Positions 37,237-56,656 of a stretch of DNA of 56,656 nt are shown piece by piece. How positions within the stretch are numbered: the first letter of the stretch is position 1; the number at the start of each line of letters is the position of its first letter. Below the pieces are notes generated by a model. It saw nothing but the letters and a program-made list of their open reading frames with translations. It did no database searches and was not told the origin of the DNA. Source of the DNA: Candidatus Syntrophosphaera sp. (GTDB lineage: Bacteria > Cloacimonadota > Cloacimonadia > Cloacimonadales > Cloacimonadaceae); assembly GCA_019429425.1 (NCBI GenBank), contig JAHYIU010000006.1, positions 1-56,656 of the forward strand, in the 5' to 3' direction. The position numbers were made by a program, and so were the translations under genes.

Positions 37237-38424
37237 TCATTCGGTGTAATGATCGCCGAACCAGACCTCGATCCGCTCGAGGATGTTGTCGATGTCCTTG
37301 GCGGAAAACTCCGAGGCGAGCAGATCACGTGCGCTGACGGCATCCTCTTCACCTTTCGCGGCAGCCAGGGAAAGCCAGAAGAAGGCTTCATAGGCGTTTT
37401 CCGGAACGCCGTCGCCAAAGGCGTAGCTAAGCCCGATCTCGTATTGGGCGGTGGAGTGGCCTTGGTCGGCGGCCCGCAGGAACCACTTTGCGGCTTCGGC
37501 GTGGTTTTTGGCAAGGTTGGCGCCAGTGTAATACTCTTTGCCCAGGGCATACTGGGCTTCGGCGAAATTCAGGTTGGCAGAGGAAAGCAGCCATTTTTCG
37601 GCTTCAGTGGCGTTTTTGGCGGTTCCCTCTCCGTTCAGATGGGCCAGGCCGAGGCTGTAGTGGGCTGCGGGATGGTTCTTTTCGGCGGCTGAAAGATACC
37701 AGCTCAGGGCTTCGGATTTGTTTTGGTTCATACCCTCGCCGCTGGCGTAGGCGAGCCCGAGATTGTATTGGGAGTGGGCGTCACCCAGTTCCGCCCCGCG
37801 GCGGTACCAGCGCACAGCCTCTTTTGGGTCCGGAGCGGTCCCTTCGCCATATTTATAGCAATAGGCCAGGTCGTTTATGGCCTCGATCTCATTCTGGGCT
37901 GCAGCCAGGCGGAACCATTTTATGGCCTCAAATTTGTCTTGATCCACTCCACCGCCGTTACAATAGAGCCTGCCCAGAAAATATTGGGCCCGGGCATGGC
38001 CCTGGTCAGCGGCCATTTCATACCACTTCAGGGCTTCCTTTTTGTTTTTGACTATGCCCTCGCCGGTTTCATAACACATTCCCAGGCTGAATTGGGCGGC
38101 GGCAAGACCCTTGTTAGCGGCCTGGCGGTACCATTTGACGGCTTCTTTCTTGTCCTGCGCCACGCCCTCGCCATTGAAATAGCAATAGCCCAGGTTGTTC
38201 TGGGCACCGGGATGGCCTTGCTCGGCTGCGAGGCCGTACCATTGATAGGCTATCATCATATCCTGTTGAACTCCCAGCCCGTCCTGATAGCAGATCCCCA
38301 GTTGGAACTGCGCTTCCGCCCCACCTTTCTGGGCCGCTGAGAGCAGCTCGTTGGTGAAAGTGAGCTGTCCATATATTACGGCTGCCAAAGCCAGCCAAAG
38401 CAAAATAAATATTAGCTTGCGCAT
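37237..38424 (-). CDS. Exported Sel1-like repeat protein
   Basis: The 395-residue protein has a signal peptide (LIFILLWLALAAVIYG) and then about nine 36-residue Sel1/TPR-like repeats of the pattern A-x-A-Q-x-x-L-G-x-x-Y-x-x-G-x-G-V (for example AEAQFQLGICYQDGLGVQQD), ending with a short acidic tail. Such helical solenoids hold protein partners together, often in envelope signalling or cell-wall assembly; no partner is obvious. The RBS GGAGG lies before the ATG. The gene is set apart by 44 bases from the aldolase upstream and has its own terminator. Repeats are regular and show no frameshift. Confidence 0.9.
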   Translation of the reverse strand: MRKLIFILLWLALAAVIYGQLTFTNELLSAAQKGGAEAQFQLGICYQDGLGVQQDMMIAYQWYGLAAEQGHPGAQNNLGYCYFNGEGVAQDKKEAVKWYRQAANKGLAAAQFSLGMCYETGEGIVKNKKEALKWYEMAADQGHARAQYFLGRLYCNGGGVDQDKFEAIKWFRLAAAQNEIEAINDLAYCYKYGEGTAPDPKEAVRWYRRGAELGDAHSQYNLGLAYASGEGMNQNKSEALSWYLSAAEKNHPAAHYSLGLAHLNGEGTAKNATEAEKWLLSSANLNFAEAQYALGKEYYTGANLAKNHAEAAKWFLRAADQGHSTAQYEIGLSYAFGDGVPENAYEAFFWLSLAAAKGEEDAVSARDLLASEFSAKDIDNILERIEVWFGDHYTE

Positions 38425-40722: not shown

Positions 40723-41361
40723 TTATCGGATGATATGCAGCCAATCCCGCAACAAGAAATCCAACCTTCCGATGAGCAGGGATATACGGGCCATGACGGT
40801 GTAGCCGAAGGAAGCGCCGAAGCTGACCATCAAAAACCAGATTCCGATCTTGGAGGGAACGGCAAAGACGCCTTCTTTCTTCCTGCTGAAATAGAAGAAA
40901 TAAACCCCGCAAAGGGTCCCGATGATCAGCAGGATGGTACCCACGACATCCACCGCGGAAGTGAATTTGAAGGGATTGATCATGGTGGCGGCGATCTGGC
41001 TGAGGAAATCGGCCTTGAAACTCAGCAGCATATAGATCGCGGCCGTCGTTCCCACCATGATGGCGATCGGATAGCGGCTTACCCATTGCAGGGAGGGGAT
41101 CATGCGCAACAGCATCATCAGGCCGAGGGCAAAGGGTATGAGCAGCAGCCAGTTGTTGGCAAAATCGGTGAGCAGCAGGTTGAACAGGTTGGGCACCAGG
41201 ATATTGTAGATCGTGTAGATCAGCCAATAACCCGCGGAGAGGCCGACGAAGATCTGCTCTGACAGTTTGTAGAAAGGATTGTCCTTATACAGGAAACTGA
41301 AGATGCTGAGGGTGAAGAAAGCACCCAGCCAGATACCGAGGACCGTCATCAGGTCAGCCAT
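40723..41361 (-). CDS. Unassigned integral membrane protein (cluster gene 5)
   Basis: The 212-residue protein has about six predicted membrane helices (LGIWLGAFFTLSIFSFLY, WLIYTIYNILV, WLLLIPFALGLMMLL, AIMVGTTAAIYMLL, VVGTILLIIGTLCGVYFF and GIWFLMVSFGASFGYTVM) and no catalytic motif I recognise. Basic residues stand at the cytosolic ends (FSRKKEGVF, ISLLIGRLDFLLR). GGAGGTGAAAA precedes the ATG; its start overlaps the preceding gene by 8 bases. It is the last of five coupled envelope genes and the acyl synthetase follows. The family is unknown to me; shared operon structure suggests a subunit of one membrane complex. Confidence 0.72.
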   Translation of the reverse strand: MADLMTVLGIWLGAFFTLSIFSFLYKDNPFYKLSEQIFVGLSAGYWLIYTIYNILVPNLFNLLLTDFANNWLLLIPFALGLMMLLRMIPSLQWVSRYPIAIMVGTTAAIYMLLSFKADFLSQIAATMINPFKFTSAVDVVGTILLIIGTLCGVYFFYFSRKKEGVFAVPSKIGIWFLMVSFGASFGYTVMARISLLIGRLDFLLRDWLHIIR

Positions 41362-42208
41362 TTTTCACCTCCCCTTGCTTGGCGTCGGCTTTTCTTTTGC
41401 GCCAGGCCTTGACATTGCCGATGGCGATGAGGATCAGGATCAGGATGTGGGCCACTGACTGGGGATTCATGTTCAGGCTGGCAGAGCCTTCATAGCCCAG
41501 CAGCAGTTCATACTCGGCCGCGGCCTTCATTCCTCCCATCAATCCGTAGAGTTGGTTTTGGTCATTCACGTAGGGCAGGAAACCCGGAGCGCTGACGGCT
41601 GTGGTGCCGCCGGCCACGGGAACGTCGTACTTGCCCTTGGCCGTCATGATCCAGTCTCTGAGGCCGGGGTCCCCGGCGGAGAGGGAAACCACGTATTTGA
41701 TGTCCCGCAGGGATTTGACCGGCCTGAGGAGTTCGATGTCCTCATAGTCCAGGCCGGAGGTGTCTTTGGGAAAAACAGTCTTGAAATTACGGCCCATGCC
41801 CTGGATCACGACCATCCCGCCGACCTTGTAGCCGAGGTTAACGTAATCCAGCCCATAGACCTTCTCATTGTTGAATTTCTTCTGCACTTCAGCAAAGGCC
41901 AGGTCCGCCATTTTTGAGCCCTGGGGCCACATTGCCGTGGCGATCACCCTGTGCTCCTTTTTCCAGGCATGCTCGATCACGGCCAGGGCCATGGGCTGCA
42001 GTTCCGTAACTGTGGAGGGGTCATAATCGAAGGAAATGATCACCACCGACTTGGGGGGTGTGTTTTCCACCAGGTCGTAGGCTTTTTTGGTGAGGGGGGT
42101 TCCATAGGTTTTCATGCCAAGGGGAAAAATCAGCGGCAAGGCCACAGCTATGACCAGCACCAGGAAGACGATCCGGCGTTCGATCTGGGTTCTGTCCAGC
42201 TTGCTCAT
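41354..42208 (-). CDS. Unassigned membrane-anchored protein (cluster gene 4)
   Basis: The 284-residue protein has an N-terminal membrane helix (IVFLVLVIAVALPLIFPLG). A soluble domain of about 220 residues on the far side of the membrane follows (KSVVIISFDYDPSTVTELQP, HRVIATAMWPQGSKMADL, VSLSAGDPGLRDWIMTAKG). A C-terminal helix (VAHILILILIAIGNVKAW) with a basic tail (RKRKADAKQG) closes it. The alternating beta and alpha pattern is Rossmann-like, but no cofactor motif or known family was recognised. ATG at 42208 is chosen because GGAGG precedes it and the ATGA overlaps gene 3; an upstream start would enter gene 3. Function unknown. Confidence 0.72.
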   Translation of the reverse strand: MSKLDRTQIERRIVFLVLVIAVALPLIFPLGMKTYGTPLTKKAYDLVENTPPKSVVIISFDYDPSTVTELQPMALAVIEHAWKKEHRVIATAMWPQGSKMADLAFAEVQKKFNNEKVYGLDYVNLGYKVGGMVVIQGMGRNFKTVFPKDTSGLDYEDIELLRPVKSLRDIKYVVSLSAGDPGLRDWIMTAKGKYDVPVAGGTTAVSAPGFLPYVNDQNQLYGLMGGMKAAAEYELLLGYEGSASLNMNPQSVAHILILILIAIGNVKAWRKRKADAKQGEVKNG

Positions 42209-42903
42209 TTGCCACCTCCCAGGTAGGACCTTTCGATTCCCAGGATGATCCTCAAGGAAGCTCCGACAATGCCCAGCGAGGCACTGATCAGGATCGCCCT
42301 CTGGGCCGCGGTATTGGGATACTGCATGATGAAATCCGTAATCTCGGGCAGGCGCAGGAAGCTCCAACTCTGGGGTATCCAACTAGTGAGCAGGGTGGCG
42401 AAGCTTGTTCTGCCCAGCATGACGATCACGGCTGTGATCATCAGCAGATTGGATTCGAAGCTGCGGATGATGAAGGCCCTGTAAGCCGCGGAGGCGATAT
42501 AGAAAGCCAGCAGGGCAAACATGGTCGCGGACAGGGGCATGTAGGCGTATTCAAAAACGTAATCGAAGGGTTTGATACCCAGATTGCGGACCACGGCCTC
42601 TCCATGGCCAAATATTCCAGGCGTGTGCTCCATTCCCCACAGCAAACCGAAGGCCACCATCAGGCCGAAACTGATCAGGCCGGCGAGGTGATATTGCCAA
42701 TTGGGGCTGCGGCGCGCCACACGGGTGACGTTTGCCTGGATCAGGCTGCTTTGGCCAAGCAGGATGGCGAAGCTGGAGATGATCATGAACCAATTGGTGA
42801 GAGTTTCTTCCAGCATGGCAAACGGATAATGGGGAATGAAGCCGGCCACGAGGATCAGCATGCCGGAGATGAAAGCCAGGATCAGGGGTACATTCTTTTT
42901 CAT
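42205..42903 (-). CDS. Unassigned integral membrane protein (cluster gene 3)
   Basis: The 232-residue protein is almost wholly hydrophobic, with six or seven membrane helices starting with VPLILAFISGMLILVAGFIP and including WFMIISSFAILLGQSSLI, YHLAGLISFGLMVAFGLLWG and LMITAVIVMLGRTSFATLL. Between helices lies ARRSPNWQYHL, a basic cytosolic loop. No enzyme or transporter motif was recognised. Its start overlaps gene 2 by one base (TAATG) with GGAGG upstream, and its stop overlaps gene 4 (ATGA). Tight coupling argues for a fixed stoichiometric complex with genes 2, 4 and 5. Confidence 0.72.
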   Translation of the reverse strand: MKKNVPLILAFISGMLILVAGFIPHYPFAMLEETLTNWFMIISSFAILLGQSSLIQANVTRVARRSPNWQYHLAGLISFGLMVAFGLLWGMEHTPGIFGHGEAVVRNLGIKPFDYVFEYAYMPLSATMFALLAFYIASAAYRAFIIRSFESNLLMITAVIVMLGRTSFATLLTSWIPQSWSFLRLPEITDFIMQYPNTAAQRAILISASLGIVGASLRIILGIERSYLGGGK

Positions 42904-44048
42904 TATCCGTTTCCTCCCGCCAGAAATTCTTTAAACCAGCCCCAGCCGGCGATCTCCATCACGATGCCCACCAAGACCAGAACGATGACCATCAGCTTGC
43001 CGAAGTCGTGGCCTTTGAGGCTTCCAAGCTGTTGCGGATCGCGCGAAAGGTAAGCCGAGGCTGCATACAGCTCCTCGCCGATCAGGGTGTAATCGCAGGA
43101 AACCACGAAAAAGGGGATCTGGTGGGGCTGCCCGGTTCCCGCGGTCTGGATCGCGCCTGTGCCGAAACCCGTTTCCGTCAGGATCAGGGATTCAGCCCAG
43201 AAGGCACCCAGGAAGAAATTGGCCGCCGGCTGCTCCCGCAGCATGATTCCGTCCACACCGGCGACAAATCCGAATTGGTCGTCGGTGACGTAAAAGATGT
43301 TTTCCTCGCGATAGGCGTCGGGCCGGCCGGCTTTCATGAAGGCTTCCTTGACCGTTTCCCGGGCAGCGGAGAGCACCATGGAAAAGCGGCAGGGCACGAG
43401 AAGTTCCGCTCCGTATTCCGCTGATTTGACGGCCAGGTGGTTCAAAATGTTCAGCGCCGCGATGGTCTGAATGTCGCCCAGATCGCTGATGCCGGGAACA
43501 AAGAGGATCGGCTTGCCCTTTTCCGTGGCCCGGCCGACCGCCTCATCCATGCTGTCCAAACCACCGATGCGCCTTATGAATAGCTCTTTACCGCGCCTTG
43601 CAGAGAAAATATAGTAGAGAATGGCCGCGCAGATGAGCGTCAGCAGGATGAGCATGGATAGCTTTTCCATGGCGAACCATTGCTGGCGGGTGACAGTTTC
43701 GGCCAGGAAACTCACGCTGTCGGCCCGGTCCCGGCTATAGGCCACCAACCTGTATTTATAGGCTGTGTCGGGACTGAGGCTGGAATCCTTGTATTGGCCG
43801 ACAACGGCAAATTCGTTCGACTGCAGGCTGAGGTCAAACTCGTTGTAGAACTCCTGGTAGACTCCCAGGGAATCCGCTTTCTGCAGGCTGAGGGAATCAC
43901 GCTGGCCGCCCAGGTCCCACTTGAGCAGGACAGCCGTGCCGTCATCCCAGGGATGGTCTTCTGCAGAGAACTTCTCAGCCTGCGCTTCCTGCCCGCCCAA
44001 GGAGAGCGATAGGAGGGAGAGCAAAATGGCAAGAAAAAAAATCTTCAT
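42903..44048 (-). CDS. Fibronectin-like, membrane-spanning protein of unknown role (cluster gene 2)
   Basis: The 381-residue protein starts with a signal peptide (FFLAILLSLLSLSLGG). A fibronectin-type III-like domain follows (about 25-120, DGTAVLLKWDLGGQRDSL and TAYKYRLVAYSRD), then a membrane helix (LSMLILLTLICAAILYYIF). A cytosolic domain (about 155-345, GKPILFVPGISDLGDIQTI) and a last helix (VIVLVLVGIVMEIAGWGWF) complete it. The part after the first helix recalls the domain of unknown function I know as DUF6754, seen in several anaerobic phyla; this is memory and needs a check. It lies 13 bases after the lipoprotein gene and overlaps gene 3. Function unknown. Confidence 0.7.
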   Translation of the reverse strand: MKIFFLAILLSLLSLSLGGQEAQAEKFSAEDHPWDDGTAVLLKWDLGGQRDSLSLQKADSLGVYQEFYNEFDLSLQSNEFAVVGQYKDSSLSPDTAYKYRLVAYSRDRADSVSFLAETVTRQQWFAMEKLSMLILLTLICAAILYYIFSARRGKELFIRRIGGLDSMDEAVGRATEKGKPILFVPGISDLGDIQTIAALNILNHLAVKSAEYGAELLVPCRFSMVLSAARETVKEAFMKAGRPDAYREENIFYVTDDQFGFVAGVDGIMLREQPAANFFLGAFWAESLILTETGFGTGAIQTAGTGQPHQIPFFVVSCDYTLIGEELYAASAYLSRDPQQLGSLKGHDFGKLMVIVLVLVGIVMEIAGWGWFKEFLAGGNG

Positions 44049-44061
44049 GTATACCCCAATT

Positions 44062-44862
44062 CTATGGTTTGGCTTTGACGAAGGCAGCTTTGATGGCTGA
44101 CGTTGAGCTGATGATCGAGCCTATTTCTTCCCCGGTCAGAAATTCCTCGGGAGGCTTTTCCATCAATTTCACCAATGACTTGAGCTCTTTAAGGGCTGTT
44201 TGGAAAGCGGGTGACGCAGTGTATTGCTTGTCACTGATCAGACGAAAGTTATCCAACAGGCTTTGCCAGGTTTCCGGATGCAGAAGCAATCTGGAGCTGT
44301 CTGCGTTGCGAGCATCCCCCATTCTCCGGGCAAATTGGTTTGTGGCTTCTGTCCAGCTTCCCAGGGACATGACAGTGTACATTTCATAACGTTCTTTGTC
44401 GAACAAAGTCTGCTCCACGGAGTACTGCATGTTGTACAGAGTGTTTTCCAGGATCGGCCAGTCTTCTGAGTCCAGCATCGGTTTGACACTGTCTCTGAGC
44501 TTTGCTGAGATGTCCTCCAGACCCAGTTTGGGCCCCAAGCCAATGATCTGGGCCAGCAGCGCGTCCAATTGACGGCCATTCCGGTTTAACACAGCCAATT
44601 GGAGGTCCGTGGTCAGAACGCCCCAGGCAAAAGCGTTGTGCAGCGTATCCTGGGCGGAAGGGGCGATCATGCCTATCGAGAAACTTTCTTGTGTTTTGCC
44701 CAGGCCGTCAAGGGCGAGAAACATCGACTTGAACGAACCTATGGGAGCGAATTGGGTGACCCTGTTGCGAGCGTCCGGAAACTTGCTCTTGTCGTTGTTC
44801 TTGCAGGAAGCCACAAACAAGGACCCGATCAGGATCGCCAGAATTAGATGCTTAATTTTCAT
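44062..44862 (-). CDS. Unassigned lipoprotein (cluster gene 1)
   Basis: The 266-residue product begins with a lipoprotein signal and lipobox LFVASC (cysteine about residue 20). A charged linker (KNNDKSKFPDARN) and a mostly helical domain follow (LNRNGRQLDALLAQIIGLG, LYNMQYSVEQTLFDKERYEM, ALKELKSLVKLMEKPP). No known family was recognised. AAAGGA stands before the ATG. It heads the five-gene cluster. The 150-base gap upstream (44863-45012) is AT-rich and has an inverted repeat CTTGAA/TTCAAG, but no convincing promoter. Confidence 0.72.
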   Translation of the reverse strand: MKIKHLILAILIGSLFVASCKNNDKSKFPDARNRVTQFAPIGSFKSMFLALDGLGKTQESFSIGMIAPSAQDTLHNAFAWGVLTTDLQLAVLNRNGRQLDALLAQIIGLGPKLGLEDISAKLRDSVKPMLDSEDWPILENTLYNMQYSVEQTLFDKERYEMYTVMSLGSWTEATNQFARRMGDARNADSSRLLLHPETWQSLLDNFRLISDKQYTASPAFQTALKELKSLVKLMEKPPEEFLTGEEIGSIISSTSAIKAAFVKAKP

Positions 44863-45012: not shown

Positions 45013-46323
45013 TCATGGGCGAGGCGCTTCCTCGGTGATTGAATTCACGCACTCCGCACACAGGTGATAATGGCAGAAACGGTGGAAGATCTCGATCAAG
45101 CCTTGCTGGTATATCGTCTTGGAGTTAGCGAGCTTGCTGTGCGTGGCACTCATGTATCTGCCCATGAAGCGGGTGATGTGGTTTTCCTGCAGGGCGGGGA
45201 AATCGGCATACACAGCCATCACGCGTTGCTGGGAAGCGGCATCGCCATGCTTGTCATAATACATGTAACTGATCGGCAGGAAAATATTGACGAAGATGCT
45301 GCTGATCAGGCCCTGCCCGAGTTTGGGCAGCTTTTCAGCTCCAGGCAAGGTACTTTGGGCAAAGCTCCTGGCAAAAGAGGAGCGGGATTTCCCGCCTTGG
45401 AAACTGCCGGTTTCAAATTGGTCCAGAAAGTAATTCAGAAAGCTTTGCTCAGAAGTTCTGGCGATCAGGCTGCCCATGGCAAAGATGCGGTAAATTGGAT
45501 GGTTACCAGGACGGATGCGGAACAATTGCCAGGGCAGATCAAGTTTTCTGGCGTAGAACTTTTGGCGCTCATAAGTTTGCCGGAGAAGTTCGAGCAGCGA
45601 CCCTTCCAGGCGATTTTGGCTTTTATCCAGGAGCCCGGAAGCGCAGCAGAAGATCGCGACCAGTTCCAGCGGCGTCATGCCCTGCTCTTGCCAGGAGCGG
45701 ATGCTTTTAAGGTGGACCGTTTGGGCCAGGCTGAGCATGTTTTGCTTGTTTTTGTCATAGCCCAGGGCCTCCATCACGCCCTCATAAAAAACCTGGTCAA
45801 AATCGCTTAGCAGCAGCGAAGCGTTGAAGCGGCGCACTTTGTTTTTAAACCGGCGCAATCCCCAATTGGCAAGGATACTCAGCAGCCGGTCGTTGTCAAT
45901 TGCTGAAAGGAGCTCGCAATAGGTCGACCGGTCCTCGCCGGAGGGGACAAGCGGAGATTCCAGCAGCTTGCGGATGTCTTCGCTGAGTTGGTCCTTGAGT
46001 TCCAGGATCTCGGCAGTTTCCCCGTTTTGCTTGATCGTGATTTGCTGCTTGCCGGCATTCATTACCACATGCAGGATCACATTGTTGAAATGGGGATCCT
46101 CGTGATGCTCGTGGGCGTTCCAATCGTAGCTGTTGATATGGATTTCCACGTCGCCCCTTAGTATCTCACCGTCCAGGGAAACGATCACGTTGCGGAAATC
46201 CGGGCCCCGGTTGGTGTTGTATTGGCCCTGGTAACTCACTTGCAGGGTTTTTCCGCTCACAGTTTTGAGCGGAGTGAGCAGATGCCCGGCGTCCCAGATA
46301 TGGTAGAGGAATTTCTCTTCCAT
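45013..46323 (-). CDS. DUF2851 family protein
   Basis: The 436-residue protein has the DUF2851 hallmark near the N-terminus: EKFLYHIWDAGHLLTPLKTV, QGQYNTNRGPDFRNVIVSLD, LRGDVEIHINSYDWNAHEHHEDPHF in two parts (LRGDVEIHINSYDWNAH and EHHEDPHF), then VILHVVMN. The His-rich stretch and the GDVEIH element are conserved in the family and suggest a metal or nucleic-acid role, but none is established. The C-terminus has FCHYHLCAECV, a possible zinc site. It is followed leftward by the unassigned lipoprotein cluster after 150 bases. The start codon lacks a clear RBS and lies 13 bases from the mtgA stop. Confidence 0.88.
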   Translation of the reverse strand: MEEKFLYHIWDAGHLLTPLKTVSGKTLQVSYQGQYNTNRGPDFRNVIVSLDGEILRGDVEIHINSYDWNAHEHHEDPHFNNVILHVVMNAGKQQITIKQNGETAEILELKDQLSEDIRKLLESPLVPSGEDRSTYCELLSAIDNDRLLSILANWGLRRFKNKVRRFNASLLLSDFDQVFYEGVMEALGYDKNKQNMLSLAQTVHLKSIRSWQEQGMTPLELVAIFCCASGLLDKSQNRLEGSLLELLRQTYERQKFYARKLDLPWQLFRIRPGNHPIYRIFAMGSLIARTSEQSFLNYFLDQFETGSFQGGKSRSSFARSFAQSTLPGAEKLPKLGQGLISSIFVNIFLPISYMYYDKHGDAASQQRVMAVYADFPALQENHITRFMGRYMSATHSKLANSKTIYQQGLIEIFHRFCHYHLCAECVNSITEEAPRP

Positions 46324-51894: not shown

Positions 51895-53445
<1,551 letters not shown>

Positions 53446-53499
53446 TAAGGTGCAAAAAGGCAAGAAGCCTTCCTCCATTCCTACCTCTATAATGATAAA

Positions 53500-53575
53500 G
53501 GGGAATTAGCTCAGCTGGGAGAGCGCCGCTTTTGCAAGGCGGAGGCCGTCGGTTCGAATCCGTCATTCTCCACCA
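53500..53575 (+). tRNA. tRNA-Ala, anticodon UGC
   Basis: The 76-nt gene lies in the 16S-23S spacer. Acceptor GGGGAAT pairs with ATTCTCC (one G-U), anticodon stem CCGCT/GGCGG encloses TTTGCAA (anticodon TGC), and CCA is encoded. The T stem GTCGG/CCGTC has a U-U mismatch at its second pair. No tRNA-Ile is present in the spacer. Confidence 0.96.
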
Positions 53576-53607
53576 TCAATAAACATTTTTATACATACAA
53601 GTTTAGA

Positions 53608-53634
53608 TTAGATCTTTACCAGAATATAGAGTGG
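53608..53634 (+). promoter_or_regulatory. boxA-like element in the 16S-23S spacer
   Basis: GATCTTTACCAGAATATAGAG repeats the 16S-leader boxA-like element (24 of 27 bases over the full element). A second boxA in the spacer, ahead of 23S, is the normal layout of antiterminated rrn operons. A GA-repeat (53642-53654) lies between it and the 23S start. Confidence 0.6.
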
Positions 53635-54290
53635 ATCCGCGGTGAGAGAGAGAGTATAACACACAAGGATACATTGGTGAAAGCACAAAGGGCGTATGGT
53701 GGATGCCTACGCACCAAATGGCGAAGAAGGACGTGGCGAACTGCGATAAGCCCCGGGAAGCTGTAAGCGAGCTTTGATCCGGGGATTTCCGAATGGGGCA
53801 ACCCGGCAGGTTGAAGACCTGTCATCCGGCACCGATTGACCATCCCTGTTTCCTGATAATGGGAAGCGGAATGGGGTGTTCAATCGGTGCTGGAGGCGAA
53901 CGGCGTGAACTGAAACATCTTAGTAGCGCCAGGAAGAGAAAGTAAAAACGATTCCCTCAGTAGTGGCGAACGAACGGGGAAGAGCCTAAACCGGCCTTTT
54001 GGCCGGGGTTGTGGGACGGCGACATCTGATCTCAACTTATAGACGAACCGATCTGGAAAGTTCGACCGCAGGGGGTGAAAGTCCCGTAGTCGAAATGGGT
54101 TGATATTGGTAGCCGGATCCCGAGTAGCCCGGGACACGAGAAATCCTGGGTGAATCCGCGAGGACCATCTCGTAAGGCTAAATACATTTGGTGACTGATA
54201 GCGTAGCAGTACCGTGAGGGAAAGGTGAAAAGCACCCCGGGAGGGGAGTGAAATAGAACCTGAAACCGTATGCCTACAAGCGGTCAGAGC

Positions 54291-54423
54291 TGGCGCCAAC
54301 AATGTTCGTGAAAACGTGCAAGCGTGAAAGGGTGTAACCCGGGTTCAAGCCTTCGATGCGAGGTTTGGCCGGATGTTACACGTTTCCACTGCTCCACGAT
54401 TTTCACGGATATCGTTGGCGCTG
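54291..54423 (+). other. Intervening sequence in 23S helix 25
   Basis: TGGCGCCAAC (54291-54300) pairs with GTTGGCGCTG (54414-54423), extending helix 25. Inside, CGTGAAAACGTGCAAGCGTG runs on one arm and its imperfect complement (CGTTTCCACTGCTCCACGAT then TTTTCACG) on the other, giving a hairpin of about 36 bp. Helix 25 is a known insertion site for 23S intervening sequences, which RNase III often removes without rejoining. No open reading frame lies inside. Confidence 0.85.
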
Positions 54424-55735
54424 GTGATGGCGTGCCTTTTGCATAATGAGCCGACGAGTTAATGTCATAAGCGAGGTTAAGTGTTACAGGCACGGAGCCG
54501 TAGCGAAAGCGAGTCTTAACAGGGCGTGAAGTTTATGGTATTAGACCCGAAACCGGGTGATCTACCCATGGTCAGGTTGAAGGTTGGGTAAAACCAACTG
54601 GAGGACCGCACCAACCGTTGTTGAAAAAGCGGTGGATGAACTGTGGGTAGGGGTGAAAGGCCAAACAAACCCGGAGATAGCTGGTTCTCTCCGAAACATA
54701 TTTAGGTATGGCCTCAGGTGGACATTAACGGAGGTAGAGCACTGAATGGGCTAGGGGGCTCACAAGCTTACTGAACCCAATCAAACTCCGAATGCCGTTA
54801 ATCAATACCTGGGAGACAGGGCGTGAGGGATAAGCTTCACGTGCGAGAGGGGAACAACCCAGACTGTCAGCTAAGGTCCTCAAATAGATGCTTAGTGCGT
54901 AAGGATGTTCAATTGCCCAGACAGCCAGGATCTTGGCTCAGAAGCAGCCATGATTTAAAGAGTGCGTAACAGCTCACTGGTCGAGTGGTAGAGCACCGAA
55001 GATAATCGGGACTATAAGCATCTTACCGAAGCTGCGGAGCAGCGCGCTTGCGCGTTGCTGGTAGGAGAGCATTGTGCCTGCGCCGAAGGTGTATTGTAAG
55101 ATATGCTGGAGCGAGCACAAGAGACCATGTCGGCATGAGTAACGACAATGCGGGTGAGAAACCCGCACACCACAAGCCCGAGGATTCCTGAGTAAAGTTA
55201 ATCTTCTCAGGGTTAGTCGGCCCCTAAGGTGTAGCGAATAGCGAAGCTGATGGGAATCAGGTTAATATTCCTGAACCTGTGTATGATGCGATGGAGTGAC
55301 GCGACGGTGCAGCGGGGACTGCTGTTGGAATAGCAGTTGAACGCGTGTAGGAGGTGATCCAGGCAAATCCGGGTCACGCATACTCCGAGGCGTGGGACGA
55401 GGCGCAAGCCGCAAAGCCCGTGTACAGACGTCGCCGAGAAATAGCTTCTAAGCTTCAGTCATGCACAGACCGTACCGCAAACCGACTCAGGTGGGCGAGG
55501 AGAATATCCTAAGGTGTTCGAGCGAACTCTGGTTAAGGAACTAGGCAAAATAACCCCGTAACTTCGGGAGAAGGGGTGCCCCGTTATCGTGAAGGAGAAC
55601 ATCCCAAGCGAGAGGGGGCCGCAGTGAAGAGGCCCAAGCGACTGTTTATCAAAAACACAGGTCTATGCGAAGGGGAAACCCACGGTATATAGACTGACAC
55701 CTGCCCGGTGCCGGAAGGTTAAATGGAGAGGTCAT

Positions 55736-55923
55736 CCCTCTTTTACCGAGCGCAGAGGTTCGTGACAAGGTGAAACAGATCGTGAAAACGTGAAATATGC
55801 CGTGAAAACGTGCAACCAAGGCCGGGACTTGTGATCGCAAGTCCATAGCAAGGTTACATGCTTCCACCCTTCCACGCTTCCACGTCTGCACGCATCCACG
55901 ATCCTGCACTCCGTAAAAGAGGG
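55736..55923 (+). other. Intervening sequence in 23S helix 68
   Basis: CCCTCTTTTAC (55736-55746) pairs perfectly with GTAAAAGAGGG (55913-55923). The 5' arm carries CGTGAAAACGTG twice (55781 and 55801) and the 3' arm carries CTTCCACGCTTCCACG-type complements, so the insert folds as a long hairpin. Its tip is GGACTTG/CAAGTCC with a 6-base loop. The flanks (GGAAGGTTAA before, GAAGCCCCGGTAAACGGC after) place it in helix 68, which is about 30 nt in Escherichia coli. The 15-mer CGTGAAAACGTGCAA is identical to one in the helix 25 insert. Confidence 0.82.
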
Positions 55924-55937
55924 AGAAGCTTCGAAAT

Positions 55938-56031
<94 letters not shown>

Positions 56032-56101
56032 TTTGGGCGCTGTCTCAACCAGGGGCTCGGTGAAATTGAAGTAGCGGTGAAGATGCCGCTTACCCGCGAA
56101 C

Positions 56102-56132
<31 letters not shown>

Positions 56133-56271
56133 GCTTGGTATTGTAAATTGGTGCAGTATGTGTAGGATAGGTGGGAGGCTATGAAGCGTGCACGCTAGTG
56201 TGTGTGGAGCCGACGTTGAAATACCACCCTTATTGTATTGATTTACTAACGATCGTAAAGCGATCGGACAT

Positions 56272-56307
<36 letters not shown>

Positions 56308-56470
56308 GAAAGAGTAACGGAGGCTTGCCAAGGTTCCCTCCGGCTGGTTGGTAATCAGCCACAGAGCATAAAGGTATAAGGGAGCTTGACTGCGAGACTG
56401 ACGGGTCGAGCAGGTGGGAAACCAGGTCTTAGTGATCCGGCGGTCCTGAATGGAAGGGCCGTTGCTCAAA

Positions 56471-56503
<33 letters not shown>

Positions 56504-56559
56504 ACCGCCCAAGCGTCCATAGCGACGGCGGTGTTTGGCACCTCGATGTCGGCTCAACT

Positions 56560-56610
<51 letters not shown>

Positions 56611-56613
56611 AGT

Positions 56614-56656
<43 letters not shown>

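Follow-up and report, generated by a model that had tools for sequence, protein, structure and literature searches.

The genome of Candidatus Syntrophosphaera sp. (Cloacimonadota) contains, within the 56,656-nucleotide stretch analyzed here (positions 1 to 56,656 of contig JAHYIU010000006.1 in assembly GCA_019429425.1; hereafter the window, in which the coordinates of g1 to g7 are counted), four adjacent genes for membrane proteins, g2 to g5, that form a real and well-supported unit encoding a DUF6754 protein, a six-transmembrane (6-TM) protein, a bitopic protein, and a second 6-TM protein. Also well supported is the genomic partnership of this unit with a module that consists of a MutL-type ATPase and a barrel-sandwich protein, here called mutC. 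The reading that is tentatively favored is that of a multi-paralogue membrane complex, perhaps one for solute uptake, with a MutL-mutC ATPase module that several units use in common.

The genes g1 to g5 correspond to genes 1 to 5 of a preliminary description made from the sequence alone; g6 is the Aas-like enzyme and g7 the class II aldolase that follow them. All seven are open reading frames on the minus strand:

44862-44062, minus strand: g1, lipoprotein of 266 amino acids (aa) with the lipobox LFVASC
44048-42903, minus strand: g2, 381 aa, with a signal peptide, an FN3-like domain, a transmembrane segment (TM), the cytosolic DUF6754 domain, and another TM
43688-42924, minus strand: DUF6754 domain of g2 (residues 121-375), from the PF20539 profile match
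42903-42205, minus strand: g3, 232 aa, 6-TM subunit with the N terminus inside, from hydropathy and charge
42208-41354, minus strand: g4, 284 aa, bitopic, with two TMs that enclose a periplasmic, Rossmann-like domain of alternating beta/alpha elements, from the AlphaFold2 model and topology
41361-40723, minus strand: g5, 212 aa, about six TMs, apparently with the N terminus outside
40704-39169, minus strand: g6, 511 aa, Aas-like AMP-binding enzyme (PF00501, E=1.5e-65)
39185-38469, minus strand: g7, 238 aa, class II aldolase (PF00596, E=6.7e-25)

Overlaps of 1, 4, 8, and 17 bases connect g2 with g3, g3 with g4, g4 with g5, and g6 with g7, respectively, and gaps of 13 and 18 bases separate g1 from g2 and g5 from g6; these coordinates agree with the spacing given in the preliminary description for genes 2 to 5, the synthetase, and the overlapping aldolase. 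Its characterization of the individual proteins was likewise borne out, by the lipobox of g1 (a lipoprotein), by the FN3-like domain and the two-TM layout with a signal peptide in g2 (a fibronectin-like bitopic protein), and by hydropathy, charge topology, and the AlphaFold model of g4 for the polytopic g3 and g5 and the bitopic g4 with its Rossmann-like outer domain. The proposed assignment of g2 to DUF6754 was tested by profile and is unequivocal (PF20539, E=6e-121, 402.8 bits versus a gathering score of 27, covering positions 2-256 of the 257 in the profile). No matches above the curated cut-offs were found in Pfam or NCBIfam for g1, g3, g4, or g5, in line with the earlier statement that none of the five genes belongs to a family with a known role. 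The PF00501 and PF00596 matches confirm the Aas-like acyl-activating enzyme and the class II aldolase; in these two databases, the synthetase portion of Aas-type proteins comes nearest to g6, which resembles the acyl-ACP phospholipid acyltransferase/synthetase models, and g7 is nearest to rhamnulose-1-phosphate aldolase.

The 190 loci examined contain 149 complete units, with the four genes co-directional, in the order g2-g3-g4-g5, and tightly packed (median gaps of 10, 3, and 0 bp across all loci). Seven apparent violations of this order look like artefacts of open reading frame extension or of fragmentation, and in 16 loci of relatives with the compact form the four genes always occur together and in the same sequence. 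Because the same gene order recurs across phyla, the coupling of g2 to g5 is not due to chance. The flanking genes behave differently: of the 10 same-family loci, all have g1 and g7 next to the core and 6 have g6 there, but none of the three lies beside the core in seven order-level relatives, nor do g6 and g7 in the loci of other phyla. Accordingly, g1, g6, and g7 are lineage-specific neighbors outside the conserved unit, and g1 is probably accessory in its own family. The idea of a single membrane machine, for which scattered homologues were to count as contrary evidence, therefore stands for g2 to g5, which co-occur in order across phyla, and not for g1, which is adjacent in same-family loci only; the proposed coupling of a five-gene unit to an acyl synthetase is not supported.

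The reach of the unit was assessed by scanning a genome collection for DNA that could encode the invariant motif YTLIGEE, in a pattern limited to GC-ending codons and hence favoring GC-rich genomes. At least 117 stretches were detected; the g2 profile matched 111 of the 117 listed, with g3 to g5 following in order wherever the stretch was long enough. Units were found in records named Fermentibacter, Stahlbacteria/WOR-3, Zixiibacteriota, Eisenbacteria, Coatesbacteria, Elusimicrobia, Nitrospira, Planctomycetota, Acidobacteria, Binatia, Gemmatimonadota, Kofleriaceae, and Latescibacterota, as well as in Symbiobacterium, Fermentithermobacillus, and others, Bacillota being among the phyla represented. 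In Cloacimonadota, 115 of 118 genomes encode DUF6754, two or three copies per genome being usual. No DUF6754 relatives were detected in collections of viruses, phages, and plasmids, so the domain is not a feature of mobile elements. Whole units are tandemly duplicated in five loci (L047, L073, L094, L115, and L123), with parts of three units lying within 8 kb in L123.

The Syntrophosphaera genome itself encodes a second unit, of a different type (type B; contig C4, L009:7311-15897), which consists of a 1,049-aa DUF6754 protein whose N-terminal part is long, the counterparts g3', g4', and g5', and a different, 956-aa DUF6754 protein. The g3 and g5 proteins of type B are 84-86% identical to those in Cloacimonadota records. 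Visual inspection of the long N-terminal parts of the two DUF6754 proteins revealed FN3-like stretches; the first protein has a lipoprotein-type signal. Since the type B unit encodes two different DUF6754 proteins, it suggests that the complex contains at least two copies of g2.

In many phyla, the unit is directly preceded by three genes coding for a small helical protein of ∼120 aa, an ATPase of the MutL/GlmL type from the ASKHA (Hsp70/actin-fold) group (PF13941, E values to 1e-128), and the 375-aa mutC. Both ASKHA phosphate motifs (DxGxxTT type) are visible in the MutL sequences. Among loci with sufficient flanks, mutC lies upstream of the unit in 35 of 73 and MutL in 24 of 49. The trio is located downstream of the unit in Symbiobacterium and forms a separate operon elsewhere in the genome in Cloacimonadota (L149-L156 and L158); in Syntrophosphaera, it is on another contig than g2 to g5 (L158), which is why the preliminary description could not have seen it. 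Co-occurrence points the same way: of 39 genomes with DUF6754, 36 encode mutC, versus none of 6 genomes whose match to the DNA pattern was due to chance (p=1e-5), and among 199 genomes of Bacillota, where the system is sporadic, DUF6754 is present in 16, mutC in 15, and both in 14 (p=1.6e-18), both values ignoring shared ancestry.

Cloacimonadota also have a fused MutL-mutC protein, whose gene immediately precedes the type B unit of genome G027. The idea that the fused form pairs one-to-one with type B units was discarded, as G021 has type B units and only separate MutL and mutC. On Syntrophosphaera contig C59 (L157:190-10986), the fused protein (967 aa) is encoded divergently from a block, also seen in L159 and L160, that includes a MeaB-like GTPase, both subunits of methylmalonyl-CoA mutase, and phosphoglycerate kinase. 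One stretch of mutC weakly matches RnfC_N and NQRA_N (E values of 8e-5 to 0.02; best score, 23.1 bits versus a cut-off of 25.6), and the rest of the protein matches no family. There are also weak matches of mutC to biotin/lipoyl domains, with no conserved lysine motif for modification seen, and a lipoate-ligase-like protein is encoded near the unit in seven loci (L046, L058, L061, L070, L096, L110, and L130; LplA-B_cat in L096 and L130).

In several genomes, the units outnumber the ATPase modules. The 2.3-Mb genome of Fermentithermobacillus has 14 DUF6754 matches, 12 of them full-length, and five MutL-mutC sets; two other Bacillota genomes have ten DUF6754 matches each, and some Bacillota combine 10-14 units with only 3-5 ATPase sets. 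In Cloacimonadota, the single-contig genome G021 encodes three DUF6754 proteins, one MutL, and one mutC. With 2-14 units per genome and a smaller number of MutL-mutC sets, one set presumably serves several units. Paralogues from three multi-copy genomes are most similar in g2 (42-47% identity), followed by g3, g4, and g5 (34-39%), values that weakly suit a common inner docking part combined with variable transport or binding parts.

The multi-copy units of Bacillota are solitary and lie at separate loci. Their neighbors, several of them named by eye, include D-aminoacylase-like and other amidohydrolases, M20 and C26 peptidases, creatininase, threonine dehydrogenase with KBL, indolepyruvate oxidoreductase, and RpiR/IclR-type regulators. 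In a comparison of 126 neighbor proteins with 126 control proteins from the same genomes, from which the worst spurious long open reading frames of GC-rich neighbors had been excluded by hand, Amidohydro_3 was found in 10 neighbors versus 2 controls (per-family p=0.017) and Amidohydro_1 in 9 versus 2 (per-family p=0.03). Near the units of Nitrospira and relatives, a Memo-like protein recurs (L059, L060, L083, L086, L118, and L122; PF01875 in L060).

Structural models are of high confidence for g4 and g2 (mean AlphaFold pLDDT, i.e., predicted local distance difference test, of 95.1 and 89.6, respectively). Charge statistics over more than 100 sequences, with 4.5 Lys/Arg residues after TM1 of g2 versus 1.0 before it, place the DUF6754 domain in the cytosol and the domain of g4 in the periplasm. 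The same statistics give g3 an N-in orientation; the apparent N-out orientation of g5 comes from reading them together with the sequence and is the weaker assignment. The N-terminal domain of g2 is FN3-like (Foldseek TMt of 0.76 to FN3tt, with FN3 chains also retrieved by profile) and was the only part of the g2 model matched by Foldseek; PDB sequence searches with g2, g4, mutC, and MutL likewise found FN3 domains only. The g4 model, in which an alternating beta/alpha domain is flanked by two TMs, had no Foldseek match in the PDB at E≤0.001. Its generic Rossmann-type matches had high root mean square deviations, 4.4-5.0 for the best-shaped, to eIF2B subunits, and were not taken as homology. 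In the AlphaFold models, the beta/alpha elements of the DUF6754 and g4 domains follow one another in the same order, in each case between two TMs, but a profile comparison of the trimmed domains detected no homology in sequence (hhalign P=0.078); profile comparisons revealed no homology among g1 to g5. Nearly invariant residues include R173, E176, R271, E286, E292, Q310, and the motif DYTLIGEE in g2 and N28, E35, Q122, and G173 in g5.

In the uptake complex tentatively proposed here, g2 to g5 would associate physically into a single membrane complex, with g3 and g5 forming the membrane path and the Rossmann-like domain of g4 and the FN3 domain of g2 facing the outside. The cytosolic DUF6754 domain could serve as a docking or gating element for MutL-mutC, so that g2 to g5 would confer specificity and the ATP cycle of MutL would energize or gate uptake, most likely of peptide- or amide-type nutrients. 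A bolder version, which must be considered doubtful, sees here a new class of primary transporters driven by an ASKHA ATPase, with MutL-mutC energizing many substrate-specific g2-g5 units and with the bitopic alpha/beta subunits g2 and g4, as well as the 6-TM subunits g3 and g5, lying in opposite orientations to produce an inverted pseudo-symmetric architecture. “Ca. Cloacamonas acidaminovorans” has been proposed to live by lysine fermentation (PMC3149608), which is compatible with uptake and does not test it. Several observations weigh against an uptake function. None of g2 to g5 is similar to any known transporter, and the near-universality of DUF6754 in Cloacimonadota would fit a housekeeping role, too, just as its near-invariant charged residues would suit an enzyme. 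The rather complete genomes G030 and G034 encode MutL and mutC without DUF6754, and in most phyla there are one or two units, which lack clear catabolic neighbors. The neighbor enrichment is modest, was calculated for families picked after looking, and is not significant for M20 (7 of 126 neighbors versus 4 of 126 controls).

The combination of outer domains with an inner ASKHA ATPase and the many paralogues adjoining catabolic genes and regulators could also be expected of a signal-transducing assembly, in which g4 and the FN3 part would sense an extracytoplasmic ligand and relay the signal via g3, g5, and DUF6754 to MutL-mutC as a cytosolic switch. However, two 6-TM subunits exceed the needs of a sensor, and an output domain, such as a histidine kinase or a cyclase, is not a fixed part of the system, which makes this option unlikely. 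The charged residues of DUF6754, including DYTLIGEE and the Arg/Glu positions, and the weak RnfC_N and NQRA_N matches would fit a membrane enzyme or ion pump with catalytic DUF6754 and g4 domains and mutC as an RnfC/NqrA-like cofactor or electron-transfer subunit. Given that every such match falls below its curated cut-off and that no redox partner recurs, this possibility appears quite improbable.

Much the same low probability is assigned to a cobamide-related system, in which the complex would import, remodel, or hand over cobamides and MutL would act as a relative of B12-enzyme reactivases. The partner ATPase does share the MutL domain and both ASKHA motifs with the GlmL/MutL family (PF13941, TIGR01319, NF040745, and NF040744), whose GlmL members are accessory to B12-dependent mutases, and the fused MutL-mutC is encoded near methylmalonyl-CoA mutase and the MeaB-like GTPase. 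Among the loci covered, the latter association was seen in the family of Syntrophosphaera only, and no mutase cluster recurs beside the units. The partner MutL remains far below the cut-offs of the GlmL and Or-4 models (229 bits for the MutL of L080 versus 475 bits for GlmL), it appears to go with mutC and membrane units rather than with subunits of glutamate or ornithine mutase, and a cobamide role would hardly account for 10-14 paralogues in one genome. The original suggestion, an envelope machine for the handling or export of lipids or lipid-linked sugars supplied by the Aas-like synthetase, drew on the adjacency of g6 and g7 to the core in Syntrophosphaera and on the likeness of g6 to acyltransferase/synthetase models. 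Most of its support falls away with the finding that the Aas-like gene is only locally a neighbor, being away from the core even in 4 of the 10 same-family loci; moreover, Pfam searches produced no match to a lipid-transfer family, and a lipid role is now very improbable.

The division of labor proposed for the complex resembles that of ECF transporters and of the shared MsmK ATPase, where a number of membrane units, each with its own specificity, rely on a smaller number of ATPase modules. The likeness is hypothetical, and the present system has an ASKHA rather than an ABC ATPase; Pfam searches with g2 to g5, MutL, and mutC detected no ABC ATPase, permease, or S-component family. Neither is it an Rnf/Nqr complex, with mutC below the cut-off and no Rnf/Nqr subunits in the recurrent neighbor clusters. 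The PF20539 entry, whose full domain is present in g2, covers neither the four-gene unit nor its MutL-mutC partners, and an open-access literature search found no paper naming DUF6754, PF20539, or PF13941. We know of no system that matches the seven-component combination, and tests of membership did not place it with the ABC/ECF, Rnf/Nqr, or GlmL-mutase systems; it appears to be new in kind, with a function that we infer.

In the remainder of the window, visual inspection suggested that a Sel1-type repeat protein is encoded downstream of g7 (37237-38424) and a DUF2851-like protein upstream of g1 (45013-46323). The plus strand carries an rRNA operon (51895-56656) with 16S rRNA, tRNA-Ala(tgc), and 23S rRNA running off the contig end.

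The seven-component system thus occurs in many phyla, is nearly universal in Cloacimonadota, and reaches a dozen or more copies in one 2.3-Mb genome; family models are lacking for three of the four membrane subunits. Should the uptake reading be true, the system would be an ATP-linked transporter of a new kind and would shed light on the nutrition of poorly cultivated bacteria that ferment amino acids. Whether or not that reading is correct, scattered hypothetical proteins become one testable complex, and the MutL family gains a role outside B12-dependent mutases.

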